Source of the DNA: Cyanobacteria bacterium CG_2015-22_32_23
GTDB taxonomy: Bacteria > Cyanobacteriota > Cyanobacteriia > Cyanobacteriales > Cyanobacteriaceae
Reading direction: 5' to 3'
Assembly: GCA_009993045.1 (NCBI GenBank)
Contig: JAACUG010000066.1
Coordinates: 1-59,326 of the forward strand
Length of the DNA stretch: 59,326 nt
Shown: one piece after another, positions 10,699 through 27,349 of the stretch
Layout of the letters: each line of letters starts with the position of its first letter
Position numbering within the stretch: position 1 is the first letter of the stretch
Translations under genes and position numbers: made by a program
Notes under the pieces: generated by a model
Seen by the model: only the letters and a program-made list of their open reading frames with translations
The model's database searches: none
Told to the model about the DNA's origin: nothing

Positions 10699-10710
10699 AT
10701 TAAAATATTT

Positions 10711-11601
10711 TTATCCTAATTTTTCTGTTACCCAACTCGTAATTAAACCATTAATTTCTTCAGGTATTTCATCATGGGGACAATGACCAGCTTTAACATA
10801 TACTTGAGTTAAATTACTATAATGTTTTTTAAACTTTTCTCCTCTTTCTTGCGATCGCATCCAAGGATCAGCTTCTCCCCAAATATTAAGTAAAGGACAG
10901 TTCATTTTCTGTAATAATTGATCAATTTTTTCTCCTTGAGGACTTTTAAATACAGAACTAAATACTTGTAATGCACCATCATCACAGGAAGGGCGATAAA
11001 TATCTTCAACTAATTGATCGGTAATGGCAGTAGAATCTAAATAGACTTTTTCGAGAGTTTTGCGAATATTTTTTTTGTTGCGTAATCGCTGAAACAAAAG
11101 ATAAGTAATCCAATCTTGTTTTAATAACCAACCGCTAATTTTTTGAACAAAAGTAGTTTTTTTGGTTACAGTATCAGAAAAAGGGCCAGCACTATTAAGT
11201 AAAATAACCCCTTTAACATTGTGATGATACTCCGCCGCCGTACATAAACAAGCGTAACCACCTAAAGAATTTCCAGCAATAATGGTTGGTTGCTTAATTA
11301 CTTCTGTGATAAAGTCGTTTAGTTGTTCACGCCAAAGATTACCCGTATATTCCCATGACGGTTTACTAGATCTGCCAAATCCTAACATATCAATAGCCCA
11401 CACGGAAAAGTTTTCTTGTAACTGATGAATATTTTTGCGCCAATGGTCAGTAGATGCACCAAAACCATGTACTAATAATAAAGTTGGTTTATCATCATCA
11501 CAATTTCCTGCTTGTACATAGTATATTTTTTGTTCGCGCCATTGCCAATAGTTACCTTCTAAGGCGTTGACATAATGAATGGAATCCTTAGCAATAATCA
11601 T
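10711..11601 (-). CDS. Alpha/beta-fold hydrolase
   Basis: The 296-residue protein has the full alpha/beta hydrolase pattern: an oxyanion-hole HG motif (LLVHGFGASTDHW), AIDMLGFGRSSKP, a nucleophile elbow GNSLGGYA, an acid in the segment LLNIWGEADPW, and a catalytic His in AGHCPHDEIPEE. This arrangement is typical of the soluble cyanobacterial hydrolases often annotated as haloalkane dehalogenase-like or esterase-like; the substrate cannot be told from sequence. It has no signal peptide, so it is cytoplasmic. Confidence 0.85.
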   Translation of the reverse strand: MIIAKDSIHYVNALEGNYWQWREQKIYYVQAGNCDDDKPTLLLVHGFGASTDHWRKNIHQLQENFSVWAIDMLGFGRSSKPSWEYTGNLWREQLNDFITEVIKQPTIIAGNSLGGYACLCTAAEYHHNVKGVILLNSAGPFSDTVTKKTTFVQKISGWLLKQDWITYLLFQRLRNKKNIRKTLEKVYLDSTAITDQLVEDIYRPSCDDGALQVFSSVFKSPQGEKIDQLLQKMNCPLLNIWGEADPWMRSQERGEKFKKHYSNLTQVYVKAGHCPHDEIPEEINGLITSWVTEKLG

Positions 11602-11828
11602 TAATGTTATGTTTTATAAAGTTATGTTAACTATTATAAACAGATTAATAGCTGAGTAAAGCATCAAATTTTCAGGAAATAGAAGATAGAAATAAATGTA
11701 TATATTAAGCCTTAACTATTTATTTTTATCAATGATTGATTCCTGTTGCTAATTTTGCCCTAAAAAAAGTTTTTATTAATTCCAAAAATAATTGAAAATG
11801 TATTGAAAATATTATAATTTTTAATATC

Positions 11829-12308
11829 TTATTCGTTGTAACTATAATCAAAATTTTGACCTTGAGAATGACATTCAATACAGCTATTAATAGTAATAGT
11901 AGAAGAAAAATTTATTTGGGGATGAAGTGCGAAAAAATAACGAGATTGTGCCATATATTTTGGTTTAATTTCGTCTTTTAATAATTGTCTTGAATAATTT
12001 TGTAAATATTGCCACATTAATCTTTGAGTAAAACCAGTCAAACCCTCAACTTTTGTTCCATAATGATTTGTGGGAGTTTCTAAAATTTCTTGCCATGTTT
12101 CTTGAGGTAAAACTGACGGTGGAATAGGTATATGACAAGTTGCACAATTTTCTACATATAAATCTTCCCCAATTTTAAAATTTCCCGTGGCTTTATCTAC
12201 AGATGCCATCGCCATAGAATCAAAACTACGAGACGCACTCCAGCCGATAACGATACTCCAGCTAAGAATAAAGCTAATAATAATGGTAATCCAAGCTCTT
12301 TTATTCAT
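11829..12308 (-). CDS. Membrane-anchored diheme cytochrome c
   Basis: The 159-residue protein has an N-terminal hydrophobic segment (ITIIISFILSWSIVIGW) acting as an uncleaved anchor or signal. Two c-type heme sites follow: CATCH in ENCATCHIPIPP and CIECH near the C-terminus. The layout matches the diheme cytochrome c (DHC) family, with the IPPSVLPQETW region and a long helical spacer between hemes. It would face the periplasm or lumen. Its redox partner is unknown. It is the next minus-strand gene after moxR (57-bp gap), but a functional link to that cluster is not evident. Confidence 0.85.
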   Translation of the reverse strand: MNKRAWITIIISFILSWSIVIGWSASRSFDSMAMASVDKATGNFKIGEDLYVENCATCHIPIPPSVLPQETWQEILETPTNHYGTKVEGLTGFTQRLMWQYLQNYSRQLLKDEIKPKYMAQSRYFFALHPQINFSSTITINSCIECHSQGQNFDYSYNE

Positions 12309-12365: not shown

Positions 12366-13274
12366 TTATTCTACCGCCACGGTATTTAATAAACGAGCAA
12401 CGATTACTTTCGCATTTCTACCACCAGAGGGAATAAGACGATGAGATAAGACATTTGGCGCTAAAAATTTGATGTCATCAGGAATCACATAATCTCTACC
12501 CTCTAAAAATGCTAATGCTTGACTGGTTTTTTGCAATATTGATGTACCACGAGGGCTAACTCCTAAAGTAATATCATCATCATTACGGGAAGCGGTAATT
12601 AGATTAACTATATATTTTTGTATTTCGGGAGCTACTTTTACTTGTGAAACCTGTGTTTGTAAATCCATAACCTCGGCTAAAGTAATACAAGGAGAAAGCT
12701 CATTAATGGAGGTAGAATTTAATTGCTTTTCCAACATTTGCAACTCTTCTTCAAAGGAAGGATAACCTAAACTTAAAGATATAGCAAAACGATCCATTTG
12801 TGCTTCAGGAAGGGGAAATGTACCTTGATATTCAATGGGGTTTTGAGTAGCGATGACAAAAAAAGGTGAAGGTACAAATCTAGCGACACCGTCAACGGTG
12901 ATTTGTTTTTCTTCCATTACTTCTAACAACGATGATTGAGTACGAGGTGTTGCTCGATTAATTTCATCGGTTAATAATATATTAGCAAAAGCCGGTCCTG
13001 ATAAAAATTCAAATTCTCTAGTGCTAGGATTCCATATGTTTGTACCTGTAACATCACTTGGTAATAAATCAGGGGTACATTGAATACGCTGAAATTTTCC
13101 ATCAATTGAACGAGCAAGAGACTTGGCTAATAAGGTTTTTCCCACTCCGGGTACATCTTCTAGTAAAGCATGACCACCACTCAATAAGGCAACTATTACT
13201 AATTTTATCGCATCTTCTTTCCCTACGATTGTACGCGCTAAATTTTCTTTGAGAATGGTAATTTTATCTCTCAT
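12366..13274 (-). CDS. MoxR-family AAA+ ATPase
   Basis: The 302-residue protein is a complete MoxR AAA_3 ATPase. It has Walker A GVGKTLLAKSLA after GGHALLEDVP, Walker B LLTDEINRATPRTQSS, the sensor-1 region ATQNPIEYQGTFPLPEAQMDRF, and the sensor-2 region GVSPRGTSILQKTSQAL. MoxR proteins are chaperone-like ATPases that usually act with VWA-domain partners to assemble or activate complexes. A VWA-like lipoprotein is encoded two genes upstream on the same strand (14513-16111), with an X-domain protein in between, so it is the probable ATPase of that arm. The gap to the upstream gene is 103 bp, so it may also have its own promoter. Confidence 0.92.
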   Translation of the reverse strand: MRDKITILKENLARTIVGKEDAIKLVIVALLSGGHALLEDVPGVGKTLLAKSLARSIDGKFQRIQCTPDLLPSDVTGTNIWNPSTREFEFLSGPAFANILLTDEINRATPRTQSSLLEVMEEKQITVDGVARFVPSPFFVIATQNPIEYQGTFPLPEAQMDRFAISLSLGYPSFEEELQMLEKQLNSTSINELSPCITLAEVMDLQTQVSQVKVAPEIQKYIVNLITASRNDDDITLGVSPRGTSILQKTSQALAFLEGRDYVIPDDIKFLAPNVLSHRLIPSGGRNAKVIVARLLNTVAVE

Positions 13275-13377
13275 TAATGGTGATTTCCTGATATTTTTTC
13301 TTTCTTTAAGTATTTTATCTTAGATTTCTGCTTATAGTTATTACTTTTTTGATAAAATCTGACAAATTATACAACTA

Positions 13378-14448
13378 TTAAAAGCTAATTTCTCCTGATT
13401 CGATTAATAACCATATATCACCATTTTTTCTTAACTTTGCTGGTTTTTTGATCAGAATATTATTAGCAGACACAGCAACAGGAATTTCATTATCGGCGAT
13501 GAATAATTTAGTATAATTTGCTAATTTTAAAGTCATTTTATCAAAAATAATTTGAGGATCTAAAAATAAAAATTCTTCGTTATTTACTTTTTTTAAGATA
13601 TATTCTCCTTGACTATTAGCTTCTAAATTGATATTATTAATTTTATTTTCTAAAAAATTTTTAACGGTATCTTTTGTTAATTTTAATTTAGTAAATCCTC
13701 CTTCTGATTCAGCAAATTTAACAGGATTTTCGTAGTATAAATTAAGATATTCAACATAGGCTGGTTCTAATTTTTTTAATCGATTATCTAAAAATTTAAT
13801 GTCTTTTGCTAATTGAGAATTACCTTGATTTAATTTCTCTAAAACAGTTAATAATTGTTCTAAACTAGCTGGGATTTTATCTTCGTTATTAGTCAGATTT
13901 TGTAAACCTAAAACTATTTTTTTTATAGCAGTTTTTTTACCTAAAAATAGTTCTCCTTTTTGTTTTATCTGCCATTCATTGCCACTGGGCAAAATTTCTA
14001 ACATTGCTGGTTTAACTAAAGTAAATTCTTCTTCTTTATTATTTTCTTCTCCTCGAAGTAAGAATAAATAATTAATAGTTTTTAAACGATATATTTTTAA
14101 CTGAATATTACCATTTGGTAATAAATAATAGTTTTTTCCTTCATCATTTTCTAGTAAAATTACCCAATAATTTCCTTTATTAACTTGATTTAAAATTATT
14201 TTCCCTTCAGTTTGCTTTCTATAACTTTCCTCTGATAAAGAAACCGTTACAGCATAGGCATCTAAAATATGAGAAACATCGTTATAAAAATCAATTAATT
14301 GAGTCAAAGAAATTTCGAGAGACTTTGGTGATTTATTAGCTAAATTACCGTTAATAATTACTGCTTTTTCTGATTCTAATTTAGTTATTCTTTTTTCTAA
14401 TTTTTGTACATAAGTAATTATTTTTTCTAATTCAGTATTATTAGCCAT
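13378..14448 (-). CDS. Coiled-coil protein with two tandem copies of an unnamed 'X domain'
   Basis: The 356-residue cytoplasmic protein starts with a short coiled coil (IITYVQKLEKRITKLES). I see two divergent copies of one ~120-residue domain. Copy 1 is at about 52-175 (FYNDVSHILDAYAVTVSLSEES ... VKPAMLEI ... EWQIKQKGELFL) and copy 2 at about 235-356 (YYENPVKFAE ... YILKKV ... FLFLDPQIIF ... KKPAKL ... WLLIESGEISF). The same domain ends the proteins at 21902 and 22828. Shared features are an aromatic N-terminus, a Thr/Ser-Lys-x-T turn, a Y-I-hydrophobic strand, an L-D/P-N turn, a late PA dipeptide and a W-x-(L/I)-I-(E/D)-x-G-E/I ending. It lies between the VWA lipoprotein gene (64-bp gap) and moxR. 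I know no named family. Confidence 0.7.
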   Translation of the reverse strand: MANNTELEKIITYVQKLEKRITKLESEKAVIINGNLANKSPKSLEISLTQLIDFYNDVSHILDAYAVTVSLSEESYRKQTEGKIILNQVNKGNYWVILLENDEGKNYYLLPNGNIQLKIYRLKTINYLFLLRGEENNKEEEFTLVKPAMLEILPSGNEWQIKQKGELFLGKKTAIKKIVLGLQNLTNNEDKIPASLEQLLTVLEKLNQGNSQLAKDIKFLDNRLKKLEPAYVEYLNLYYENPVKFAESEGGFTKLKLTKDTVKNFLENKINNINLEANSQGEYILKKVNNEEFLFLDPQIIFDKMTLKLANYTKLFIADNEIPVAVSANNILIKKPAKLRKNGDIWLLIESGEISF

Positions 14449-14512
14449 AAATCATTATTACGTTATTAATAAGTTTAGTTAAATTATTATTTTGATAATG
14501 TTAGATTATAAT

Positions 14513-16111
14513 TTAATTTTTTTGAATAGCAAAACAAAAGTTTCCGATAACAGGATCATTTTCACTATTACTTAAATTTGCTAAACTTAAATTCTTTAAT
14601 TTATTCATAAAAATAGATAAATTTTGTGTTTTTGAACCATCATTATTCTGATTATTTGCATTCCAAGTATTCCACCAATCTAATCCGATTAAATCATCTA
14701 AAATTAAGTTAACTTCAAATAAATAAACATTAGAATTAGGTAAACTTTGTAAATTAATATCTGTGATAAATTGTAAAGTTTCTTTTTCTTTATCTAACTT
14801 TAAGTCTTTAACTACTAAACCTTGTTTTAAAGAGTTATTATTATTGAGTGTAAAAAATTGTTTATTAGAGGAATTTTGAGGTAAATTATCGATTTTTTCT
14901 GGGGTTTTTTCTTGAGGTTTATTTTCAGTTTCTTTATCGGATTCTGATTTTTCTTCTTGAGGTTTATTTTCAGTTTCTTTATCGGATTCTGATTTTTCTA
15001 CCGTGGATTCTGTTACTTGATTATCAGAAGAAAAAGTATATACTTTAGTGTCAGTTTTTAAATTATTTTCATCCATCGATAATGAATAATTACCACCTTT
15101 AATCTTCTCAACTGTGGGAAATGCAACTTGATAATTAAGGGTTAGTTTAGGTTCAATATTATCTATACTTAATAATTCATAAGGTTCATTATCAGGATTT
15201 TCAACACTAACAATAACGTTATTATCTTCTAAGGCAAAAACTCTCTCTAAAGAATTATTTTCTGGTAATGTACTTTTACTTTTTCTTTCATCAAGATTGC
15301 CTAAATTAATCATATTTTGTACTAAAACTTTTTGAGTAGGAAAAATAAACATTTCACTATTATTTTGAATTTCTTTATCTAAGGTTTTTAACTCATCAAA
15401 ATAGTTAGCAATTTGCTCATATTTACCGATAAATAACACATAAAAAGGACGAAAAGCCTCCTCGGTTTTACCTTCCGTGCTATAGTTAAATTTAGCTTTT
15501 CCCGTATTTGGATTATAAATAACACCATTAAATTGACTTTTTACTGCCCAAATTCCTACCGTATAATCTTGATTTTGAGGATCTTTATTTAAGTAATTTT
15601 GTGCTAAAACTTCAGCAATTTTCCCGCCATCATCTCCTTCTAAATCCGTAACGATTATAGTTAATTTATCTTTCCCGTTTACAGGAGGCAGTATCGCTGA
15701 ATGAATAGGACTTGAAACTGCTTTATAATTACTGTCATTACCATCATAAAAATTTTTAGAAGTAGCATTGTTGACAAAATTATTGCGAGTGAGAATTTTA
15801 TCATCTCCAATGCGTTTATATTCTAAATTAGTTTTATTATTGGTGTCAATAACGGCAGAAGCCAATAATTGCAAGGCTTTAATATAATTATTATTAGGAA
15901 TAGTAACATAGCCTACCATTGAACTACTACCATCAACATTAACCGATATATCTAAATTACTCCTGTTATTGTCAGTTTGAGTAGAAGTTTGTATTAAGTC
16001 TGTCATACAAGATAACGTTTCTACGGGAGTTTTTTGACAACTGGTTAAGAAAGATAAAGAAAAAATTAGAAAAAGTAAAGATTTAAAGGTATTTTTACCG
16101 ATGTTACCCAT
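14513..16111 (-). CDS. VWA-like lipoprotein
   Basis: A lipoprotein signal peptide ends in the lipobox FLTSC, reached from the ATG at 16111 (a TTG at 16168 would add 19 residues ahead of the signal and is unlikely), giving 532 residues. Just after the anchor comes LDISVNVDGSSSMVGYV, a D-G-S-S-S MIDAS-type metal site, and further on a VTDLEGDDGG acid cluster, as in von Willebrand A folds. A low-complexity Glu/Lys/Ser linker holds a 15-residue tandem repeat (KSESDKETENKPQEE). The C-terminal part has no recognised domain. It would sit on the outer face of a membrane. It is first in the minus-strand arm and divergent from the membrane protein at 16276, with 164 bp between the two ATGs. Confidence 0.75.
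   Translation of the reverse strand: MGNIGKNTFKSLLFLIFSLSFLTSCQKTPVETLSCMTDLIQTSTQTDNNRSNLDISVNVDGSSSMVGYVTIPNNNYIKALQLLASAVIDTNNKTNLEYKRIGDDKILTRNNFVNNATSKNFYDGNDSNYKAVSSPIHSAILPPVNGKDKLTIIVTDLEGDDGGKIAEVLAQNYLNKDPQNQDYTVGIWAVKSQFNGVIYNPNTGKAKFNYSTEGKTEEAFRPFYVLFIGKYEQIANYFDELKTLDKEIQNNSEMFIFPTQKVLVQNMINLGNLDERKSKSTLPENNSLERVFALEDNNVIVSVENPDNEPYELLSIDNIEPKLTLNYQVAFPTVEKIKGGNYSLSMDENNLKTDTKVYTFSSDNQVTESTVEKSESDKETENKPQEEKSESDKETENKPQEKTPEKIDNLPQNSSNKQFFTLNNNNSLKQGLVVKDLKLDKEKETLQFITDINLQSLPNSNVYLFEVNLILDDLIGLDWWNTWNANNQNNDGSKTQNLSIFMNKLKNLSLANLSNSENDPVIGNFCFAIQKN
14905..14999 (-). repeat. 45-bp tandem repeat inside the VWA lipoprotein linker
   Basis: Two nearly identical 45-bp units encode ESDKETENKPQEEKS-type sequence in the linker after the VWA-like region. 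The near-identity at silent positions points to recent duplication or slippage. The period keeps the reading frame. Confidence 0.8.
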
Positions 16112-16275
16112 GAATTGACGATAATTTTGTATAGGTTTATTTTCAATATATTTTAAGTTGTCGAACAAATATTGAATTATATTTCTTTTTTTAACATTAA
16201 GATTGGAGTTTAATATATATTAAAGTATAACAACTTTTTTATAAACACTAAATCTAATTATTGAGATTAAAAATA
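16112..16275. promoter_or_regulatory. Divergent promoter region of the two cluster arms
   Basis: The 164 bp between ATGs at 16111 (minus) and 16276 (plus) is strongly AT-rich (for example TTTTTTTAACATTAAG and ATATATATTAAAG) and must carry promoters for both arms. I cannot assign exact -35 and -10 hexamers with confidence. Confidence 0.4.
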
Positions 16276-16764
16276 ATGAAAGTCGGAGAAATTATTAGAA
16301 TTATTAGTTGTGGCTTAGTAGGACTGATTGTTATGATGTGGCTACAACCTTATTTGTATGACCAAAAGTTTTTTGGTGTAATTAAAAGCATTCCTCTTAG
16401 CGACTGGATTAAACAATATACTTTAGCAGCAGGTATTGTTTTTGTATTTTCTTTTGGATTTACAATTTTGTGGTATATTTTAACCTTAAAAAATCAAGAA
16501 TCAGATTCAAATTCTTTTAAATTAGTCTGGTATATTGGTTTATTTTTGTTGGTGATTATCGTTAGCCTTAGTGTTTATTTTAATAATCAAGATGAAAAAG
16601 GAAATTTAATTCAAGAAACATTAATTTCCATGATGGGATTATTTTTATTTAACTCTTTATTCCTATTATATTGGCTTCCTACCGTTACCAGTACTCCGGG
16701 GCTACATCGAAGAAGATTAGTGCCGGGGGCAAGAATCGTAAATGATCTTATTGGTAGAGAGTGA
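16276..16764 (+). CDS. Four-helix membrane protein of the tubulin/actin cluster
   Basis: From the ATG at 16276 (a TTG at 16261 is the alternative) the protein has 162 residues with four predicted TM helices: IIRIISCGLVGLIVMMWL, LAAGIVFVFSFGFTILWYIL, LVWYIGLFLLVIIVSLSVYF and LISMMGLFLFNSLFLLYWLP. It ends in a conserved-looking basic cytoplasmic tail (TPGLHRRRLVPGARIVNDLI). I do not recognise the family. It heads the plus-strand arm, 127 bp before the tubulin-like gene. A membrane anchor for the cytoskeletal-type proteins is a reasonable inference, not shown by sequence. Confidence 0.65.
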   Translation: MKVGEIIRIISCGLVGLIVMMWLQPYLYDQKFFGVIKSIPLSDWIKQYTLAAGIVFVFSFGFTILWYILTLKNQESDSNSFKLVWYIGLFLLVIIVSLSVYFNNQDEKGNLIQETLISMMGLFLFNSLFLLYWLPTVTSTPGLHRRRLVPGARIVNDLIGRE

Positions 16765-16880
16765 TAAATTTTGATAATTTAGGCATAATAATAACTAAAA
16801 ATAAATAATTATTTAAACATTGTAGTTAATCTTATTTTTAATTTTTAATTCATGTCTATATAATAGAAAAAAAACAAAAA

Positions 16881-16886
16881 AGGAGG
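16881..16886 (+). promoter_or_regulatory. Strong Shine-Dalgarno of the tubulin-like gene
   Basis: AGGAGG sits 5 nt before the ATG at 16892. This is much closer to consensus than most leaders in the window, which have little or no SD, and it suggests the tubulin-like protein is made in quantity. Confidence 0.8.
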
Positions 16887-16891
16887 AAAGA

Positions 16892-18394
16892 ATGGGTTTT
16901 TATGTAGTGGGTATTGGTGGCACTGGTGCAAAATGTATCGAAGCGATTATTCAATTAGCTTCCATCGGCTTAATTCCGACTAATAAGTTAAGAATTTTGT
17001 TTGTCGATGCTGATGAAACCAATGGTAACTTACAAAGAGTACAAACAAGTTTAAATATTTATAGGCAATGTTATCAAATCTTGAAAGGAAAACATGAAGA
17101 ATGTCCTTGGATGACTACGGATATTGAATCTTATCGAGTTTGGTCACCTTTTACGAATAGTAATACTGACAAAAAGTTAGGCTCATTTTTTACCTACGAC
17201 ACTCTAACACAAACCAATAAACCCTTAGCAAATTTATTTGATGTACTTTATACCGAAGAAGAAAGACAAGTTTCTTTGGAAGTAGGGTTCAGAGGCAGAC
17301 CAGCTATAGGTTCTAGCATTATAACTCAAATTAATTTAGAACGGTTAGAAGAAGAGCCTTGGCGATCGTTTATCAATCAAATTGAAGGAGATGCGAGTAG
17401 TGGCAGTGGGGCAAAAGTTCTCTTATGTGGCTCTATTTTCGGCGGTACAGGGGCTTCAGGACTACCCACTATAGGGAGATTGATCTCTAATAAATTAGAA
17501 CGAGACGGCGTTAGAGAGAGCGTACAAATAGGGTGTATTTTTGCTTTACCTTACTTTAATTTTCCGAAGGCAGGGGCAGATGAAAAAGTTTTCGCTAGTT
17601 CAGATTTATTCTTACTTAACACAGAAGCCGCTTTAAGATATTACAGAGAACAAGCTCAACAATTTGACACAAAATATCTCATTGGCAATCAAAGTTTTGA
17701 GAAATTAGGAGAATTTAGTGTTGGTAAAGATACCCAAATAAATCGCCCTCATTTTGTGGAATTTTACGCTGGTTTAGCCGCCCGTAATTTCTTCTGTGAA
17801 AATCCAGAAAAAGGAGTACACGTTATTAGTCGTAATCAAGCAGGTATCTTGAAATGGGATGATATTCCTTCCGTTGATGCGATTAAAAGTAATTTAATTA
17901 ACGCTGTGCGTTTTGCTTATATTTGGTTAGGGGATTTTGAAAAACAGTTAGAAGGAGCGAAAAATAAAGGGGTGAAAGAGTTAGATGGTTTTGCTTGGTT
18001 TGATAAGTTTTTTCAAGGGCCACCGAGAATGATGATTGGGCCTGCTCGAAGAAATTTACCTGATTTAAGCGAAACATCTCAACAGGAAGCGATAAAAATT
18101 ATCAATAACTGGTGTGAAGACTTTTTGCGATGGTTAGCCGATATTCATCAATGTGATAATGAAAAAATTGAACTATTCAAAGCCAGAGAACATTTTGCCA
18201 ATTCTAATCGGTTGGGTAATGATAAATTTTCTGATCTATTTTTTGATGATGCTAGAGGAAAAGAAACCTTAGACAAGGATACTCCTGTCGAGTTGAAAAA
18301 TACCCTTGGAGCTTTAGATATAAGCAAATTCGGCGAACCAAATCAAGGGGTTACGGGGTTAGCAAAAGCGATTTATGTTGCTTGTAAACTTTAA
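16892..18394 (+). CDS. Tubulin/FtsZ-like GTPase-fold protein (Tubulin_2 type)
   Basis: The 500-residue protein starts with a Rossmann-type beta-alpha unit GIGGTGAKCIEAI (7-19), equivalent to the tubulin/FtsZ T1 loop, then LFVDADETN (about 46-54; T3-like). At 184-190 it has FGGTGASG, the counterpart of the tubulin signature GGGTG(T/S)G that binds the GTP phosphates (T4), and then LPTIGRLISNKL. It has no FtsZ C-terminal tail or TM segment. It fits the 'tubulin-like' group distinct from FtsZ (Makarova and Koonin described such families next to VWA genes). An obvious T7 NxDxxD GTPase-activating loop was not found by eye, so hydrolysis is uncertain. The next gene starts 18 bp downstream. Confidence 0.78.
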   Translation: MGFYVVGIGGTGAKCIEAIIQLASIGLIPTNKLRILFVDADETNGNLQRVQTSLNIYRQCYQILKGKHEECPWMTTDIESYRVWSPFTNSNTDKKLGSFFTYDTLTQTNKPLANLFDVLYTEEERQVSLEVGFRGRPAIGSSIITQINLERLEEEPWRSFINQIEGDASSGSGAKVLLCGSIFGGTGASGLPTIGRLISNKLERDGVRESVQIGCIFALPYFNFPKAGADEKVFASSDLFLLNTEAALRYYREQAQQFDTKYLIGNQSFEKLGEFSVGKDTQINRPHFVEFYAGLAARNFFCENPEKGVHVISRNQAGILKWDDIPSVDAIKSNLINAVRFAYIWLGDFEKQLEGAKNKGVKELDGFAWFDKFFQGPPRMMIGPARRNLPDLSETSQQEAIKIINNWCEDFLRWLADIHQCDNEKIELFKAREHFANSNRLGNDKFSDLFFDDARGKETLDKDTPVELKNTLGALDISKFGEPNQGVTGLAKAIYVACKL

Positions 18395-18412
18395 TTATTG
18401 AGGTGAAAAATT

Positions 18413-21400
18413 ATGGCAGATTTACTGTTATCGAAATTAAAAGATGATACCAATATTACTAAAGGGCAACCGGGCAAATGGGAAGCTAAAGGAGATAATG
18501 CTTTTAGGGATGTCGCCGATAGTTTAGATTATCAAGCCCCGGGCGTAGTTAAAAGTGTAAGCTCTGTACCGACAATTTGGGCTCGTCCTTTAATTACAGA
18601 AATGGCTCTTTATGACCAAAATCACCCTATTCATGGTTCTATGGTGGGGCAGTGGCGAGGTATGTTAGCGGCGATCGCCTTAGCAGAAGTGGAAGGGTTT
18701 AACTTAAAAGTCCAGTTTTTAGACTTAGAAAGAGAACGATATGAGGCTTTTGGAGATGCCTTATATCAACTCATGCCAGAACCTATTAACGCAGTTTACA
18801 CCAGAGAAGGAAAAAATCCTTGGGAAGAAATTTACATTTTTTTGTGGAATGGTAAAGCTGTGGGGATGAGTAGCCCTAGTACCCTTATTTGTCCCTCAGA
18901 AGAAGGAAAATGGGAGGGGTTACGGTGGTGGCAAAATAAGATGTTAGTTAGCCCTGAACCTTATTTAAACCAAGAATCAAAGGAATTATTATGGCGGTGG
19001 TTAGAAAATATCCAAAATAAACTCATTGATTTTAATGGCAATCGCATAGCAGTAAATAAAATGATGGGGTTAATAGCCTCATTCCGCAATGATTTGCAAT
19101 TAGATAATCAAACCTTACCTGCGTTAAACCTTAGCACTAACCCTAACTTTTTCGGAGAAACTATTAACCGAGGAGCGTTAACTTTACTCAATAATCCCAT
19201 CAAAATTCCGCCGAAACCCTCAAATTTGCGAGTAATTCCCAGTGCTATCAACGCCAATCAAAAACCTCTGATTATCATTGACGAAAAAATAGCTGATTTT
19301 TGGGGGCAACCGAAACAGAATATTTGGGTACATCAAGATAAAACTTTAGCTTCTTTAAACGTTGAAGATCTCAAAAACGGTAACTTAGTTTGGGATGACG
19401 TGAATTGGATTACTTCCGAAGATTTATTTTTAGAAGAATTAGGATTTTTGGATTTAGAAGACGCTTTACCCGGTGGTATTGTACCAAAATCAAAATTACC
19501 CATCACTTTTAACGGTGAAAAAATAACCCCTTTAATTCCTCTCAATGATATTTTATTAGACTACTTCACCCCAGAAGATTTAGTCAGCAAAATTGAATTA
19601 GAGCCTTTTAATAACATTAATGGGCAAGGAATCCGCTTAACTCTTTCTATTCCCTTATCTGGTATCAGTAATCAAAAACAGTTGCAAGGGTATCGTTTGC
19701 AAAAAGAGTATATTCTCAAGGAAGAGAACGCCATTAAATATATTCCCGTATTAACAGTGTGGCCTAACTTTCGAGCCACTAACTGGAAAACTTACTATAC
19801 TTTTTACTACGATGGAGATTATGGCGATAAGACTTTTCAAGTTTATTTCCCTAATCCTACTCAACAACCTCGAACTTATAAAGATCCTAATGGTACTGGA
19901 TCATATCAACTTTCAACCCTTGATAAAATACCCACCCATGTTATTTGTAAAAATAGCCGTTATGAGAACATTGGTTTAATTTTATTGACAACGCCTCCTG
20001 AAATCAACTCACGAGGTATATGGCGAGTAGGGGTGGACTTTGGTACTTCTTTTACTAACGTTTATGTAAAAGGAGAGAATAGCGGTGATTTTCCTCTGGA
20101 TATTAACAAAGATTTACAATTAAATATCACCGAAAGTCCTATTGGTACTCGTTTACCTGCTTTGATTGAAAGTTTTATCCCTGATACATTTTTACCATCA
20201 GATGAACCTTTACCATTATGTACCGTCATCACCACTAAAAACGGCAATAATCAAGATGAACTGCAACCAATTTTAGACGGACGTATTTATATTCCAGATC
20301 CTGCGGAATTTGATCCTAATAAACAATGGATTAAGTTAGATTTAAAATGGTCAAATCTTAAGTTTTCTAAAGCCTTTTTACGACATTTAGCTTTACATAT
20401 TTCGGCTATCGCCACGTCATCGGGAATGAATGTCATTGAATGGTGTATTTCCTATCCCAGTGCTTTTTCCTACATCAACAAAACAACTTTTCATCGTAAT
20501 TGGCAAGATGTTTCTGAAGAATTAAGCCCGAAAACAGGGATTGACTATTCCACACCATTAATTGATGATATTCAGCGTTTTTGCACAGAAAGCGTAGCTT
20601 TAGCTCAATATTTCAATGATAAAGAAAACCAACCCTTAATTCGTACCACTTGTATTGATATTGGCGGCGGTACATCGGATATATCTATCTGGGAAAATCG
20701 CCGAATAGTCTATCAATGCTCAGTTTTATTCGCAGGGAGAAATATTTTTTCAGAAATTTTAGCCATGAATTCTCGCTATGCTGAAAAACTAATGAAAGAG
20801 TTTATTGGCGGTAATTGGGGCTTAACCAACGAAATGTCGATTATGACAAAAATTGATGTTTCTTTACGGCATAAAGCAGAAGAATGGCTCAATAAAAAAC
20901 GAGTTTACAAAAATGAAGATGCTTATTTTCAAAGATTGATAACTATTACAGCCATCGGCGTAGCTGGTTTATATTATTACGTTGGTTTAATTTTAAAAAC
21001 TTTGTATCAAGAGAAGAAATACAGTAAACCTCAGATAACCCCTGTTTATGTTGGCGGTAATGCTTCTCGTTTCTTTCATTGGCTTTCTCCCACAGGTAAA
21101 TATGATCACAACGCTGATTTTAATAAACTATTGAGTTTAATACTAAGTAAAGGCTCAGAATTTAAAGATAGTCAAGAGAAAACCCAACTAAGCACACGTC
21201 CGAAACATGAGGTAGCCTGTGGTTTAGTACTCAGTGAAGTAGAATTAATGGGTGTCAATGATAATACGGAGTTAGAACCCATTGCGGGGGAAAACTTTTA
21301 TGTAGAATACCAAGATGACGATGAAGAGTATAAAGAGCATAAAGATTGGCAATCTCGTCTTCATTTAGAAGGTAATATTACCAAATTTGAGATACCAGAG

Positions 21401-21712
21401 CTTTCTCATCTGGAAAACTTCCTTTATGAGTTTCATGCGGGGTTACAGTCGCTCAAAATTCAGAGTATTCAACCTTTAGCAAAATCTGATTATAAACCCC
21501 AAAAACCCATGGATAAAAGTGATGAAAATGCGGAGGCAGTGGTAGATAAAAATAGTGAATTGTGGAAAGAGGTTAAATATCATCTTGAAAACGAATTATT
21601 AGACATCAAAGGAGATGCGAAAACTATTCGAGAAAAAACACCTTTCATTATGGGTTTAAAATCTTTACTTCATGTTTTAGGTAGAAGATGGGCAGATTCT
21701 TATAAAGATTAA
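18413..21712 (+). CDS. Large protein with C-terminal actin/HSP70-like ATPase domain
   Basis: The 1099-residue protein has two parts. Residues 1 to about 335 are an unrecognised Trp-rich region (PGVVKSVSSVPTIWARPLI, HGSMVGQWRGMLAAIALAE). From about 343 (LGFLDLEDALPGG) to the end it matches the protein at 24352 throughout. Within this, an ASKHA fold is shown by phosphate-1 WRVGVDFGTSFTNVYV (D542, T545, S546), phosphate-2 CIDIGGGTSDISIW (D749, GGG 751-753, T754, D756) and adenosine motif VYVGGNAS (G881-G882). The intact loops predict ATP binding and hydrolysis. It resembles SrfB/HSP70-like proteins more than MreB or ParM. It has no TM segment. It follows the tubulin-like gene by 18 bp, so the two are surely one operon. 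Confidence 0.75.
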   Translation: MADLLLSKLKDDTNITKGQPGKWEAKGDNAFRDVADSLDYQAPGVVKSVSSVPTIWARPLITEMALYDQNHPIHGSMVGQWRGMLAAIALAEVEGFNLKVQFLDLERERYEAFGDALYQLMPEPINAVYTREGKNPWEEIYIFLWNGKAVGMSSPSTLICPSEEGKWEGLRWWQNKMLVSPEPYLNQESKELLWRWLENIQNKLIDFNGNRIAVNKMMGLIASFRNDLQLDNQTLPALNLSTNPNFFGETINRGALTLLNNPIKIPPKPSNLRVIPSAINANQKPLIIIDEKIADFWGQPKQNIWVHQDKTLASLNVEDLKNGNLVWDDVNWITSEDLFLEELGFLDLEDALPGGIVPKSKLPITFNGEKITPLIPLNDILLDYFTPEDLVSKIELEPFNNINGQGIRLTLSIPLSGISNQKQLQGYRLQKEYILKEENAIKYIPVLTVWPNFRATNWKTYYTFYYDGDYGDKTFQVYFPNPTQQPRTYKDPNGTGSYQLSTLDKIPTHVICKNSRYENIGLILLTTPPEINSRGIWRVGVDFGTSFTNVYVKGENSGDFPLDINKDLQLNITESPIGTRLPALIESFIPDTFLPSDEPLPLCTVITTKNGNNQDELQPILDGRIYIPDPAEFDPNKQWIKLDLKWSNLKFSKAFLRHLALHISAIATSSGMNVIEWCISYPSAFSYINKTTFHRNWQDVSEELSPKTGIDYSTPLIDDIQRFCTESVALAQYFNDKENQPLIRTTCIDIGGGTSDISIWENRRIVYQCSVLFAGRNIFSEILAMNSRYAEKLMKEFIGGNWGLTNEMSIMTKIDVSLRHKAEEWLNKKRVYKNEDAYFQRLITITAIGVAGLYYYVGLILKTLYQEKKYSKPQITPVYVGGNASRFFHWLSPTGKYDHNADFNKLLSLILSKGSEFKDSQEKTQLSTRPKHEVACGLVLSEVELMGVNDNTELEPIAGENFYVEYQDDDEEYKEHKDWQSRLHLEGNITKFEIPELSHLENFLYEFHAGLQSLKIQSIQPLAKSDYKPQKPMDKSDENAEAVVDKNSELWKEVKYHLENELLDIKGDAKTIREKTPFIMGLKSLLHVLGRRWADSYKD

Positions 21713-21790
21713 GTTGTAAGTCAATACTGTTTGGTTAGTCGCTTAAGTTATTTTGTTCGCCCCCTTTCCAATACTGGGGACTTTCATCAA

Positions 21791-21822
21791 GTTTAACTCC
21801 CCCAAAGTTGGGGGCTGGGGAG
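21791..21822 (+). repeat. Dispersed palindromic repeat, copy 3 (CCCCCAA-AG-TTGGGGG core)
   Basis: The core at 21799-21814 is a perfect 7-bp inverted repeat followed by CTGGGGAG. A second C-rich/G-rich pair (CGCCCCCTTTCC ... ACTGGGGAC) lies just before it. It sits within the gap between the actin-like gene and the zinc-ribbon gene, where it could act as a partial terminator. Confidence 0.75.
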
Positions 21823-21901
21823 CTTAACCGAGCAGTATTGAGTAACGAGGGACAAATTTTAATATTTGAAGGGGATACTATTAACAAAAGCCGATAAAAT
21901 T

Positions 21902-22807
21902 ATGCTTTCTAATCAACGGAATAAATGCCCAATTTGTGGCACTGAATATATTAAGAATCAACCACAGTGTAAAAGATGTAATTGGAATTTAACCTTATAT
22001 TCAAGAGTGCAAAAATTTTCTTCAGAGCAAATTATTCGATACGCTGAAATTTGGGCTAAAGATGCTTATATTAGAGCAATAAATTATAGAAAAGAAAGAA
22101 ATGAATTAAGAAAACAAATGGAAGAATCACCGAATTTTATGCAGGAGTTATTTGATATAAAATCAAGACTTTCTGATATAGAAAAACAATTAGATAGCCT
22201 GACGAATTTCCCCAGAGAATCTGATAGTTTTAAAGCTCAAATTATCTCAGAAGTTAAAGTTAGTTTACAAGAAATTATTGAAGATTCTTTAACTAATTTG
22301 TCATCCCAAAATCAAGATATTTATCCGATTAATATAAATAATACATCTCTTATTACACACACTGAATTTATTGATAATAAAGAGCAATCATATTCTAAAA
22401 ATAGTAATAATTTAGAAGTAAATAAAGTAGTAGAAATTAATCCTTATGAAGAATATGTGATTGAACAATATTATCAAAATTATAGCTTTTTAGCTGATCA
22501 TGCTTATAAAGTGACTACTACAAAAAAAACCTTAGAAGAGATTTATCTGAATAAAGTTAATGAGATAATATTTCAAGAATCAAATCAAAGTGATTATTTA
22601 ATAGTGGAATTAAAAAGTGGTGGTTTTTGTTTATTACCTGACTCAAATTTTAAAATAAATACTAATTTAAAAACTATTAAAACTATTTTTGATTTAGAAA
22701 ATTATCAAGAACATTTATCTAAAAGTTTTCGAGTTATACAAACAGCTAAAGTGATAGAAATTAAGAATCAATGGCAGTTAATTGACAAAGGTATTTTACA
22801 ATTTTAA
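21902..22807 (+). CDS. Zinc-ribbon, coiled-coil, X-domain protein
   Basis: The 301-residue protein (ATG at 21902; a TTG at 21866 is possible but adds nothing conserved) begins with a four-Cys zinc ribbon, C9-P-I-C12 and C23-K-R-C26-N-W. A long charged helical region follows (RYAEIWAKDAYIRAINYRKE; KSRLSDIEKQLDSL), likely coiled coil. The C-terminal ~120 residues (IEQYYQNYSF ... YLIVEL ... FCLLPDSNF ... WQLIDKGILQF) match the X domain of the proteins at 13378 and 22828. It has no TM segment, so it is cytoplasmic. The zinc ribbon plus coiled coil suggests an adaptor. It is separated from the lipoprotein gene by 20 bp with AGGAG in the leader. Confidence 0.7.
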   Translation: MLSNQRNKCPICGTEYIKNQPQCKRCNWNLTLYSRVQKFSSEQIIRYAEIWAKDAYIRAINYRKERNELRKQMEESPNFMQELFDIKSRLSDIEKQLDSLTNFPRESDSFKAQIISEVKVSLQEIIEDSLTNLSSQNQDIYPININNTSLITHTEFIDNKEQSYSKNSNNLEVNKVVEINPYEEYVIEQYYQNYSFLADHAYKVTTTKKTLEEIYLNKVNEIIFQESNQSDYLIVELKSGGFCLLPDSNFKINTNLKTIKTIFDLENYQEHLSKSFRVIQTAKVIEIKNQWQLIDKGILQF

Positions 22808-22827
22808 TTATTTTTTAGGAGTATATT

Positions 22828-24312
22828 ATGAAAAAAAAAGTTATTATTAAATTAATTATTTTAGGTTCTTTTTTGCCCTTATTATTAACAGGATGTAAAT
22901 CTAATTCTCTTCAAGGTGAAGATAACACTAAACAACCAAATAAAACAGTTAATTCTGTTGATTTTCAAAAATTATATGGTGATATAAATCAGAGTTATAA
23001 AACTTTTGCAGAAAATATCAAAGAAGATGGAAAATTATTAACTCAACTTAAAGAAGAAAGTCAAAAACCATCCTCTGAAATAAATAATATCGATAAAAGA
23101 ATAAGTACAGATTTTAGTAAATTAACCACTGCTATCGATAATTTTAATAAACAACTTCCTGATAATAATAAAAATAAACTTGAACCTTTATTATTATTGA
23201 TAGAAATCCCCAACAATTCTAGTAATGTTAATAACTCAAATCAACAAAATAATAAAATCAGAATAGCATCTATTATTAAATTATTTGATGATGGTAAATT
23301 AGAGAAAACTGAAATTTGTGAGGATATTCAAACACCTTTAAAAGTCCAAGGCTTAAATAATACTAATTGTGGTAATTTTGGTGAAAATACTTATAAAGAA
23401 TTAAATCAATATTTAACTGATCAAATTAAATCAATTGGTACGGAAATTAAAACATTAGAAAGTAATTTACCAGATTTAAGTAATCAAACTAATGATAATT
23501 CTTCTACAAATTCTCAAAATTCTAATAATAATAATCAATTCTTAATTCTAATAATAATTAACTCTATTTTAGGTTTAGGAGTTATTACTTTATTTATTTT
23601 ATATTATTTATTAATCAAAGAGATAGGTAAAGAAAATAAAGAATTAAAAGATAAAAATAATAGAAGAAAAAAACAAATAGAAGATTTAAAAACTACAGAG
23701 GCAAATCGGAATATACAGATTAATAAAATAGATGCTAAATTAAAAGATTTAAAGAACATATCTGACAATCAATCAATGTTAATACAACAATTACAAAATC
23801 AAAAAGAAAAATCTCAATTTCCGAGTAATTTATCCGACAATTCACCTAGTCAAGCAACACAAAATAATGATAATGCTAATATTTCTTATACTTCCTTTGA
23901 AAAAACTACTCCGCCTCCTTTACCCGAAAATCTAAGATTAGCTAATTTATATAAAGAAAACCCTCAAGGTTTAATACAAAATGCCATTCGAGTTAGTATG
24001 ACTAAAGAAACTCTCAATAAAGTTTTAGCTGGTACATGGGAAGAAATTGTCGAATTTGAAGCTAATAATCGTCAAGGAGAATATTATATTGTGGCAAATA
24101 ATAGCGGTGAATCTTACCTATTTTTAGATCCTAATACTATATTTAATATTCCCACTTTACAAAATATTAATAAATCTGAATTATTTATCTGTAATGGTAA
24201 TTTATCTCAGAGTTTTAAAGGTAGTGAAATTAATATTATTAAACCTGCTATTGTTAAACCAAATAATCAAAATTGGCGATTAATTGAGTCTGGAGAAATT
24301 CAATTAGTATAA
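22828..24312 (+). CDS. Lipoprotein/TM/coiled-coil protein ending in an X domain
   Basis: The 494-residue protein begins with a lipoprotein-type signal whose lipobox is LLTGC (C23). A ~210-residue Asn/Lys-rich extracytoplasmic helical region follows, then a TM helix at about 235-262 (FLILIIINSILGLGVITLFI). After it comes a cytoplasmic coiled coil (KELKDKNNRRKKQIEDLK; NQSMLIQQLQNQKEKS) and a Pro-rich spacer (KTTPPPLPENLR). The C-terminal X domain (NLYKENPQGL ... YYIVAN ... YLFLDPNTIF ... KPAIVK ... WRLIESGEIQ) is at about 375-494. A lipidated outer end plus a TM helix would tie the cytoplasmic X domain to the membrane, bridging both compartments. The domain architecture is one I do not recognise. 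Confidence 0.7.
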   Translation: MKKKVIIKLIILGSFLPLLLTGCKSNSLQGEDNTKQPNKTVNSVDFQKLYGDINQSYKTFAENIKEDGKLLTQLKEESQKPSSEINNIDKRISTDFSKLTTAIDNFNKQLPDNNKNKLEPLLLLIEIPNNSSNVNNSNQQNNKIRIASIIKLFDDGKLEKTEICEDIQTPLKVQGLNNTNCGNFGENTYKELNQYLTDQIKSIGTEIKTLESNLPDLSNQTNDNSSTNSQNSNNNNQFLILIIINSILGLGVITLFILYYLLIKEIGKENKELKDKNNRRKKQIEDLKTTEANRNIQINKIDAKLKDLKNISDNQSMLIQQLQNQKEKSQFPSNLSDNSPSQATQNNDNANISYTSFEKTTPPPLPENLRLANLYKENPQGLIQNAIRVSMTKETLNKVLAGTWEEIVEFEANNRQGEYYIVANNSGESYLFLDPNTIFNIPTLQNINKSELFICNGNLSQSFKGSEINIIKPAIVKPNNQNWRLIESGEIQLV

Positions 24313-24351
24313 TAATTTATCTGTTAATTCTAATTAATAATTCAACTAACT

Positions 24352-26577
24352 ATGCCCATTAAAAATTTATTTTTACCTGAGCTTTATTTTTTAGATTTAG
24401 AAGACGCTTTGCCCGGAGGTTTATTACCAAAGTGTATAAATACAATAACATTTAATGATGAAATTATCACTTTATTATTGCCATTTTATCCCGATATTTT
24501 TACATATTTGAATCCTGCTGATTTAATTAAAAATACGATTATTGAGGTTATTGATCAGGAATCTATTAACATTAGTTTAAAATATGAGAATCAAATCTAT
24601 AGTCAAATTTATTTATTGAAAGAAAATAATGCTATAAAATATATGCCAGTTTTAACTGTTTATCCTAATTTTCAAGCTAAAAATTGGCAGGAATACTATA
24701 CCTTTTATTATGATAGTGATTACGGAGAAAAAACCTTTTCTGTAAAATTTAAAAATTGTGAGGAAACAGAAAAATTTAGAGACTATAATGGTACTGGATC
24801 ATATCAAATTAATCGATTAAAAAACTTTCCAGAATATATTATTTGTACAAATTTTACTGAGAATATTATTGGTTTAATTATTCTTCCTCAACCGCCAGAA
24901 ATTAGCTTAAATTATGATTGGCGAGTGGGTATTGATTTTGGAGAAGAATTCACATATATATATATAAGTACTAAAAATAGCGGTGCTTATCCTTTTGACA
25001 TCAATAAAAATTTACAATTAAATATCACAGAAAGCTGCATTGGTTCTCGTTTACCTGCCTTAATTGAAAGTTTTATCCCTGATACATTTTTACCATCAGA
25101 TGAACCTTTACCATTATGTACCGTACTAACCACAAGAAATGGAAATTCTGATCAAGAAAGAGCTATTTTTGACGGTAGAATTTATATACCAGATCCTGCG
25201 GAATTTGATCCTGATAAATATTGGATTAAATTAAAGTTAACTTGGAAAAATAATAAAGATACTCGTTTATTTCTCAAAAACTTAGTCTTTATTATCAATA
25301 TAAATGCTGCTAGTAATGGAATTAAAAATATTCAGTATTCTCTTGCTTATCCTAATAATTTTTTGGCACAAGAAAAAGACGAAATATTAGAAGAAATGTG
25401 GCAGAAAATTTTTAAACAATTAGAACTAAAAACAGGAATTAAACAATTATTTCCTAAAAGAAATGATCAAGAAAATTATCGTTCAAAAAATTTAGCATTA
25501 GGCTACTATTGGAAATATAAAGAAAAAGGTTATTTACTCAGAACAACTATTTTAAATATTGATAGATATTTCACAGATATTTGTATTTGGCAGAGAAATG
25601 AAATTATTTATCAATGCTCTATTCCACTAGGTCATCATAATATTTTTTCGGAAATTTTAGCCATGAATCCCCGTTATACTGAAAAACTAACGAAAGAGTT
25701 TATTGGCGGTAATTGGGGTTTAACCAACGAAATGTCCATTATGAAGAAAATTGATGTTTGTTTGCGGCATAAAGGAGAAGAATGGCTTAAGAAAAAGCGA
25801 GTTTATAAAAATAATGATCCTTATTTTCAGAATTTTATAACTATTGTTTCATTAGGAATTACTGGTTTATATTATTATCTTGGTTTAATTTTAAAAACTC
25901 TTTATCAAGAGAATAAATATCATAGTAATGAAATAACTGCTGTTTATATTGGTGGTAATCATTGTAATTTTTTACATTGGCTTTCTCCTACAGGTATTTA
26001 TGACAAAAATGCTGAGGTTGGTAAATTATTGAGTTTAATATTAAGTAAAAGTTCAGAATTGAAAGATAGTCAAGAGAAAACGCAATTAAGTACTTGCCCG
26101 AAACATGAGATAGCCTGTGGTTTAGTATTAGGTGAAAATAATTTAATTGATAATAGTAAAAATATAGATAAAATTCCTATTTGTGGAGAAAACTATTTAT
26201 TAGAATATGAAGATAATAGAAAAATATTTAGAGAAAATAAAGCATGGAATTCTCAATTAATTTTAGACAAAAATATCACTAAATTTGATATACCTGAAAT
26301 TACCCATCTTCAAAATTTTCTTGATGAATTTCACATTGGCTTAAACTCACTAAAAATTGACAGTATCCAACCTCTAGCTGAATCTGATTATAAACTCCAA
26401 AAATCCATAGACAGGAATAGTGAATTGTGGAAAGAAGTCAGATACCATCTTGAAAACGAATTATTAAACATCAAAGGCGACGCTAAAACTATTCAAGAAA
26501 AAATACCTTTTATTATGGGTTTAAAATCTTTACTTCATGTTTTAGGCAGAAGATGGGCAGACTCTTATAAAAATTAA
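24352..26577 (+). CDS. Actin-like pseudo-ATPase, paralogue of the protein at 18413
   Basis: The 741-residue protein aligns with residues from about 343 to the end of the 1099-residue protein and lacks its N-terminal region. The active site is broken. Phosphate-1 is DFGEEFTYIYI (T545-S546 replaced by E198-E199). Phosphate-2 is NIDRYFTDICIW (D749 to N402; the three glycines replaced by D404-R405-Y406). The adenosine motif VYIGGN is kept. Several blocks are almost identical to the paralogue, including the segment around SFIPDTFLPSDEPLPLCTV and the last ~40 residues. It has full length, good codon use and no frameshift, so it is retained as a non-hydrolysing partner rather than a decaying copy. 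The ATG is 39 bp after the lipoprotein gene stop. Confidence 0.75.
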   Translation: MPIKNLFLPELYFLDLEDALPGGLLPKCINTITFNDEIITLLLPFYPDIFTYLNPADLIKNTIIEVIDQESINISLKYENQIYSQIYLLKENNAIKYMPVLTVYPNFQAKNWQEYYTFYYDSDYGEKTFSVKFKNCEETEKFRDYNGTGSYQINRLKNFPEYIICTNFTENIIGLIILPQPPEISLNYDWRVGIDFGEEFTYIYISTKNSGAYPFDINKNLQLNITESCIGSRLPALIESFIPDTFLPSDEPLPLCTVLTTRNGNSDQERAIFDGRIYIPDPAEFDPDKYWIKLKLTWKNNKDTRLFLKNLVFIININAASNGIKNIQYSLAYPNNFLAQEKDEILEEMWQKIFKQLELKTGIKQLFPKRNDQENYRSKNLALGYYWKYKEKGYLLRTTILNIDRYFTDICIWQRNEIIYQCSIPLGHHNIFSEILAMNPRYTEKLTKEFIGGNWGLTNEMSIMKKIDVCLRHKGEEWLKKKRVYKNNDPYFQNFITIVSLGITGLYYYLGLILKTLYQENKYHSNEITAVYIGGNHCNFLHWLSPTGIYDKNAEVGKLLSLILSKSSELKDSQEKTQLSTCPKHEIACGLVLGENNLIDNSKNIDKIPICGENYLLEYEDNRKIFRENKAWNSQLILDKNITKFDIPEITHLQNFLDEFHIGLNSLKIDSIQPLAESDYKLQKSIDRNSELWKEVRYHLENELLNIKGDAKTIQEKIPFIMGLKSLLHVLGRRWADSYKN

Positions 26578-26729
26578 TTTTAGTCTCCTAATAACCTCTA
26601 AATCTGGAGAAATTCAATTTAATTAATTCTGCATACAAAATAAATAAATATGAAATAAAAAAGTATTAAATTACGAAAATATGATACTTTATAGGCATAA
26701 AATAATAGTAATTACAGAGAAAAAAAATA

Positions 26730-27026
26730 ATGAATAAACTAGATAAAATATTAGACAAAGACAAAAAACAAAAAATATTAACTATTTGTGCTAAATATGG
26801 AGGCTATAATGTCAGAATTTTTGGTTCTTATGCCAGAGGTGAAGCCACAGAAAAAAGCGATTTAGACTTATTAATGGATATAAAAAAAGGAAAAAGTTTA
26901 TTAAATCGTATTGCCTTGAAACAAGAATTAGAAGACTTTTTGGGTATAAAAGTTGATATAGCTAAACCTAATAATCTCCACGAAATTATTAAAAAACAAG
27001 TTTTACAAGAGGCAATATTTTTATGA
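26730..27026 (+). CDS. mntA: MNT-domain nucleotidyltransferase antitoxin (MntA-like)
   Basis: This minimal nucleotidyltransferase has 98 residues and carries FGSYARGEATEKSDLDLL, exactly GSX10DXD, the catalytic signature of MNT proteins, with a third acid in the VDIAKP strand. In type VII HepT/MntA systems MntA adenylylates and silences the HEPN RNase toxin. The next gene overlaps by ATGA (27023-27026) and encodes a HEPN protein, here interrupted. The antitoxin looks intact while its toxin does not. Confidence 0.85.
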   Translation: MNKLDKILDKDKKQKILTICAKYGGYNVRIFGSYARGEATEKSDLDLLMDIKKGKSLLNRIALKQELEDFLGIKVDIAKPNNLHEIIKKQVLQEAIFL

Positions 27027-27319: not shown

Positions 27320-27349
27320 AAATCCAAATTAATGAAATTTTATTTGAGA

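Follow-up and report, generated by a model that had tools for sequence, protein, structure and literature searches.

What is the role of a small domain that recurs four times in three proteins encoded around a tubulin-like and an actin-like gene in a cyanobacterial genome? This question is raised by a 59,326-nucleotide stretch of contig JAACUG010000066.1 from Cyanobacteria bacterium CG_2015-22_32_23, referred to here as the window (Table 1). A sequence-only reading had described the repeated pattern, designated X, as an unnamed and old domain, proposing it as a shared docking module that joins a MoxR/VWA arm to a tubulin/actin arm. The operon encodes a VWA lipoprotein, a small membrane protein (TM3), a tubulin-like protein (TUB), an actin-like ATPase (ACT) and the X proteins, one of which spans the membrane (TM-X).

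Table 1. Positions of genes, domains and motifs within the window
Feature	Position	Strand	Remarks
MoxR gene	12366-13274		
356-aa soluble protein	13378..14448	-	N-terminal coil (by eye), X copy 1, linker, X copy 2
X copy 1 (c1)	13945..14295	-	sequence used for AlphaFold
X copy 2 (c2)	13381..13746	-	closest within the window: TM-X copy, 38% identity
VWA lipoprotein	14513..16168	-	VWA-type metal-site motif DGSSSM
TM3	16261..16764	+	small membrane protein, hydrophobic segments by eye; conserved beside TUB
TUB	16892..18394	+	FtsZ/tubulin-like protein; Pfam Tubulin_2, GGTGASG loop
ACT	18413..21712	+	actin/Hsp70-superfamily ATPase; fold of residues 534-950, conserved phosphate/adenosine motifs
Zinc-ribbon protein	21902..22807	+	C-terminal X; alternative ORF start 21866
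Zinc ribbon	21926..21979	+	CPICG...CKRC
X copy 3 (c3)	22460..22804	+	
TM-X protein	22828..24312	+	signal/lipobox, presumed periplasmic stretch, one TM, charged coil, C-terminal X
Transmembrane segment of TM-X	23542..23598	+	0 positive charges in 15 residues before, 3 after
X copy 4 (c4)	23941..24306	+	
Second actin-like paralogue	24352..26577	+	short N terminus, degenerate nucleotide motifs, no X
Nucleotidyltransferase	26730-27026		NTP_transf_2, 98 aa
Protein kinase	27350-29152		downstream of the operon, opposite strand
PAS-GGDEF-EAL protein	29222-31027		downstream of the operon, opposite strand

The X family

The X domain spans about 117 residues, and its four copies in three window proteins proved to be a single domain, as the sequence-only reading had it. 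BLASTP was significant for five of the six copy pairs, with E values running from 1e-19 for c2-c4 (38% identity) through 1e-9 for c3-c4, 6e-9 for c1-c3 and 1e-7 for c1-c4 to 4e-4 for c2-c3; c1 and c2, which lie in the same protein, gave no direct match (E about 2). A profile built from any three copies recovered the one held out, at E 2.6e-6 for c1, 8.4e-13 for c2, 4.3e-12 for c3 and 1.9e-21 for c4, against a best E of 0.099 among 2,000 shuffled window proteins. A search of the same genome returned no full copy beyond these four, with two marginal partial matches (E 0.015 and 0.017). The motifs listed for the domain stood in outline, though each is missing or altered in one copy: T-K-x-T is present in c2-c4 and absent from c1, the PA pair of c1, c2 and c4 is TA in c3, and W-x-L-I-[ED]-x-G, exact in c2-c4, reads W-Q-I-K-Q-K-G in c1. 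The near-invariant columns of the family (Y4, V18, L58, P60, F78, A97, W108, G114) are mostly hydrophobic or small, and no conserved charged cluster is seen in the alignment by eye.

Iterated searches of the window and 36 loci of related genomes yielded 85 X domains in 69 ORFs, and a wider profile, applied additionally to 80 and then 9 further loci, raised this to 244 domains in 205 ORFs with overlapping loci counted. The 80 added loci represent 80 of the 102 TUB relatives found, some being close relatives of each other. Among 60 nearer relatives, including the window's own genome, 23 had an X match at E<=0.01, three marginal. A tree was computed from 134 of 199 domains (all four copies from the window plus a random 130; 118 columns), in which many forks are unresolved. 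In this tree, c2, c3 and c4 each fall nearest the matching copy of another genome, as expected of an old domain, and c1 falls nearest an N-terminal X of locus L043, followed by the matching copy of L038. Grouping by architecture required 31 changes compared with 70.2 in shuffles, none of 200 shuffles being as low.

The domain was also rightly called unnamed. None of the above-cut-off matches to curated Pfam or NCBIfam families in ten genes (12366-29152) fell on an X region, although c1 is touched by two weak NCBIfam matches (E 0.014 and 0.074). When the 91 rows of an X alignment were compared with Pfam, 23 families appeared at E<=0.1, none in more than two rows (best E 0.0018). No family matched more than one row in PHROGs (best E 0.0098) or in NCBIfam, where the strongest was TIGR02904 in a single row (E 2.8e-4), and PDB sequences gave no match (best E 0.13). 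A single 115-aa query matched nothing in phages, plasmids gave one record with five places, and a scan of genome contigs with the whole double-X protein as query found no relative. By hhalign, no X was detected inside ACT, TUB, TM3 or VWA (probability 0.1 to 0.3 percent). The available portions of open-licence publications contain no description of the domain.

AlphaFold modelled c1 with confidence (mean pLDDT 89.6, pTM 0.83), predicting two short N-terminal helices followed by a mixed, strand-rich body that forms a compact alpha/beta fold. Foldseek returned no match to this model at E<=0.001 in either the PDB or BFVD, and a second structural comparison placed one of 996 chains at Z 2.0, so that no solved structure clearly matches. 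The modelled fold may be new, though a missing structural match is no proof.

Gene order and distribution

The common gene order is VWA lipoprotein, TM3, TUB, ACT and then X proteins. TUB matches Pfam Tubulin_2 just below the 27-bit cut-off (E 6.2e-6, 26.1 bits), and its GTP-binding loop GGTGASG is invariant in 13 of 13 rows. The VWA lipoprotein has no Pfam VWA match at E<=1; the DxSxS metal site of its family occurs in 13 of 15 aligned rows, L056 reading DGTPSM and L042 having no such motif. The L042 ORF (830-3082) places a kinase in one frame with the C-terminal portion of a VWA lipoprotein of this family, possibly an assembly chimera in a 67% complete genome; weak kinase matches are also contained in L037 and L038.

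ACT is an actin/Hsp70-superfamily ATPase with the MreB/FtsA/Hsp70 fold. Residues 534-950, which this assignment covers and which about 530 further N-terminal residues precede, match MreB at VIA Z 20.2 (279 aligned, rmsd 3.6), FtsA at Z 18.3 and DnaK/Hsp70 at up to Z 18.2, whereas Foldseek ranked DnaK/Hsp70 structures first (E 4.6e-7). The label actin-like is used because VIA scored MreB and FtsA higher and Sll0446 has been published as FtsA. Nucleotide motifs are conserved in nearly every full-length ACT.

X was also found beside tubulin-like genes elsewhere. Of 59 TUB loci (L071-L129), 47 could be judged, the 12 others comprising 8 with no full ACT and 4 with less than 1 kb after it; in 45 of the 47, the first ORF after ACT carries X. 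Within the sequence covered, 46 of these 47 loci also contain TM3 and 35 contain VWA; L074 and L125 have TUB and ACT with X undetected. In a phylum search of 386 genomes, scoring up to 11 X and up to 4 TUB candidates per genome, 23 held both X and TUB, 2 TUB only, 6 X only and 355 neither (totals of 29 for X and 25 for TUB; Fisher p 2e-29, a value that treats genomes as independent, which they are not). The two genomes with TUB only are G095, where ACT and TM3 are in pieces, and G089, where the contig ends within ACT. Those with X only comprise G042 and G245 with strong X, G101, G133 and G326 with weak partial X, and G092, a short contig with ACT and three X genes. X is almost certainly a real, old and undescribed domain and a standard part of the operon.

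The proposed bridge between just two arms did not survive, as most operons hold several X genes after ACT and X genes also occur alone, being found away from the operon in L039, L040, L046, L049 and L061-L063. The MoxR/VWA arm was not supported: the VWA lipoprotein belongs to the conserved set, but for the MoxR gene a search at E<=1e-5 across the ORFs of 125 other loci (36, 80 and 9, some overlapping or incomplete) gave no homologue, which led to its rejection as a conserved partner of the operon.

Outside cyanobacteria, X was detected in Acidobacteria and Nitrospirae records (L116, L118) and confirmed by whole-genome search, and more weakly in Pyrinomonadaceae (L120) and Ignavibacteriaceae (L128), all four records being metagenome bins. 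The whole-genome search at E<=0.01 found no X in the genomes of L120, L125 and L128, so its presence in L120 and L128 is taken from the smaller searches. In L128, a gene that is Hsp70-like in its N terminus by eye (10672-12234) lies between two X genes. Among TUB-ACT loci of Bacteroidetes or Clostridia type (L130-L150), none of the 15 judgeable ones contains X, which implies that TUB and ACT do not need it. Five proteins scanned in these loci included three TerD proteins and one OmpA protein.

The mobilizable plasmid NC_014503.1 of Gloeothece verrucosa PCC 7822 (L166, L170) carries a complete VWA-TM3-TUB-ACT-X set in which one X protein bears WD40 and ACT occurs a second time; a weak DivIC match (E 0.004, under the cut-off) falls in the X protein encoded first after ACT. 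The window's nucleotidyltransferase is 89% identical over 79 residues to the product of a gene in L035 that likewise stands beside X and actin-like genes. The NTP_transf_2-type family is often found with toxin partners.

Partners of X and the Synechocystis counterpart

X is joined to zinc ribbons, membrane-spanning proteins, coiled coils, WD40 repeats, FGE-like domains and degenerate actins, and homologues of the double-X protein occur at L036, L037 and L038. When architectures were classed by simple motif and hydropathy rules and counted from the nearest ACT ORF, a second, short ACT included, the first X gene after ACT encodes a zinc ribbon in 30 of 54 cases, the second a transmembrane segment in 36 of 45, and later ones soluble proteins in 35 of 47. 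In 134 of 208 domains, X sits at the protein end, followed by at most 6 residues. Positive charge is greater after the membrane segment than before it in 43 of 57 TM-X proteins, less in 7 and equal in 7, which by the positive-inside rule places X in the cytosol for most of them; the charges of the window's own TM-X protein likewise point to a cytosolic X.

Ten X proteins, most picked for long tails, were scanned, revealing WD40 in five (L072, L076, L088, L089, L099) and an FGE-sulfatase-like domain in two (L054, L062). Actin paralogues with variably degenerate nucleotide motifs number six (the window's, L035, L050, L080, L083, L088), and X is fused to the N terminus in three of these (L035, L050, L088). 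Judged by their motifs, these paralogues are likely non-catalytic actins. One X protein (L065:8217-9482) has a weak bacterial SH3 match on its presumed periplasmic side (E 0.01, under the cut-off).

A counterpart can be sought in Synechocystis sp. PCC 6803, where the available part of one report describes sll0443-sll0449 as a unit of seven genes (PMC2633013). The locus L065/L158, assigned to Synechocystis on the grounds that its proteins, compared by eye, hardly differ from those of S. salina L126, encodes VWA-TM3-TUB-ACT and three X genes, seven in all. In all four Synechocystis loci examined (L065/L158, L064, L126, L157), the ORF right after ACT carries X. Between TUB and ACT, L126 has two ORFs, L157 three and L064 one; after ACT, two X ORFs follow in L126 to the end of the stretch and at least three in L157, whereas L064 has one X gene there and one before VWA. 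By gene order, sll0443-sll0449 is presumed to be the counterpart of the window operon, and from the same order, which varies within the genus, we infer that Sll0447 carries X. Sll0447 has been reported with a DivIC domain and Sll0446 as FtsA in the portions available from this group of papers (PMC9880817, PMC2633013, PMC4759255); in L065 and L126, the first protein encoded after ACT gave no Pfam DivIC match at E<=0.5.

In the published sections available, disrupting sll0445, sll0446 or sll0447 by insertion impairs phototaxis, a phenotype that may also stem from genes downstream of the insertion, and altered fluorescence kinetics are described in the same work, with the proteins forming complexes with pilus assembly proteins and interacting with photosystem complexes (PMC9880817). 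A partly available table gives ratios of about 3.8 to 5.9 for sll0443, sll0444, sll0445 and sll0448, which we read as lexA mutant over wild type (PMC4759255), and in the portion available of another study, Sll0445 and Sll0446 are named as deregulated when comFB is mutated (PMC12313861). The window's own genome contains three type II/IV secretion-type ATPases, making pili possible in this organism.

Candidate roles and related systems

The sequences show X to be a single family whose genes directly follow TUB and ACT in most operons of this kind and whose members are attached to many different partner modules. The spread of X over several architectures fits the shared docking module first proposed, and we consider the chances about even that X serves a bacterial tubulin/actin machine as a cytosolic docking (adaptor) domain. 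All X proteins would then bind one common surface through X, most likely that of the ACT or TUB polymer; the TM-X protein, beside the VWA lipoprotein, and cytosolic zinc-ribbon, WD40 and FGE sensors would thereby be brought to the same filament. TUB and ACT are expected to polymerise from the families to which they belong, and the machine may act on type IV pilus-dependent movement or on the envelope, as the Synechocystis counterpart suggests. The co-occurrence of X with TUB, the place of X genes directly after ACT, the fusions to actin paralogues and to WD40 or FGE domains, the cytosolic side indicated for most TM-X proteins and the Synechocystis data speak for docking. X genes away from the operon, strong X without TUB in G042 and G245, and TUB-ACT loci in which X went undetected, among them L074, L125 and those of Bacteroidetes or Clostridia type, speak against it. 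More tentatively, X might be a general plug, by which any fused module becomes a client of one tubulin/actin filament, linking envelope and cytosolic signals to pilus-driven movement; a membrane sensor, a zinc ribbon, a WD40 or FGE receptor and a dead actin would be such clients, and the fold of the plug might itself be new.

It is unlikely that X is instead a homotypic assembly domain, through which X proteins would bind each other and form a hub with no docking to a filament. Up to seven X genes per locus (genome G028: L050/L051) and tandem XX and XXX proteins speak for such assembly, as do the effector-associated domains of MoxR-vWA systems, thought to be homotypic in the part available of their description (PMC7159879). 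Against it, the X copies are strongly diverged by architecture, and 10 of the 47 judged loci have a single X gene; some of these loci end soon after it, and several kb follow in L105, L109, L111 and L112. Less probable again is a ligand-binding sensor that would regulate the machine by recognizing a small molecule, nucleotide or peptide: a compact alpha/beta fold among sensor-like partners (zinc ribbon, WD40, the weak SH3-like match) is consistent with this role, but the hydrophobic or small nature of most near-invariant columns and the absence, by eye, of a conserved charged cluster argue against it. The least probable reading, a conflict or defence system in which X would recruit effectors and phototaxis would be only an indirect effect, draws on the patchy spread of the operon (TUB in 25 of the 386 genomes), its complete set on a mobilizable plasmid, the nucleotidyltransferase gene here and in L035, the WD40 and FGE domains on X proteins, of which FGE-type domains are named in conflict systems in the part available (PMC7159879), and LexA-linked expression in Synechocystis (PMC4759255, as above), but it is opposed by the PADLOC search, which matched none of the eight genes 13378-26577 at E<=0.01, by the lack of a toxin domain in the Pfam scan of X proteins, and by the motility phenotype of the published mutants (PMC9880817).

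Among the closest known systems are the FtsZl1/vWA operons, predicted to be membrane-remodelling machines (Makarova and Koonin 2010, PMC2875224). The available text describes an FtsZ-like protein, a possibly secreted or membrane-bound VWA protein, membrane proteins and lineage-specific extra genes, and mentions a cyanobacterial clade. The window operon resembles these in its tubulin-like protein with a GTP loop and its VWA protein with DxSxS. It differs in its actin-like partner and shared accessory domain, both absent from the main-text description as far as available. P-loop GTPases and OmpA proteins, given there as frequent or present in several genomes and not universal, did not appear when the eight genes 13378-26577 were compared with Pfam. 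A mechanism for the operons predicted in 2010 is still lacking in the literature available; X, by marking accessory subunits, makes it possible to catalogue the machine's components and gives a handle on cyanobacterial genes annotated as hypothetical. A concrete test is offered by Synechocystis, where mutation of three genes in the operon presumed to correspond impairs phototaxis. In that operon, Tubulin_2 and FtsA/actin-like genes stand in tandem within a unit of as many genes as L065/L158; the published text available makes no mention of X and gives Sll0447 a DivIC domain.

Other systems share single features with the window operon. The FtsZ-FtsA division pair consists of a tubulin-like protein and an actin-like partner, and ACT matches both FtsA and MreB; however, Foldseek ranks Hsp70/DnaK first for ACT, which carries some 530 extra N-terminal residues, and the Pfam family closest to TUB is Tubulin_2. 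Effector-associated domains of MoxR-vWA/GTPase systems are, in the part of their description available, likewise small domains on many partner proteins (PMC7159879), but none occurs among the 23 Pfam families matched by the 91 X rows, and operons of the window's type have no conserved MoxR component. In the Bacteroidetes loci, related TUB and ACT genes also stand in tandem; there X went undetected, and TerD-domain proteins adjoin the pair downstream in L131, L147 and L149, as does OmpA in L144.
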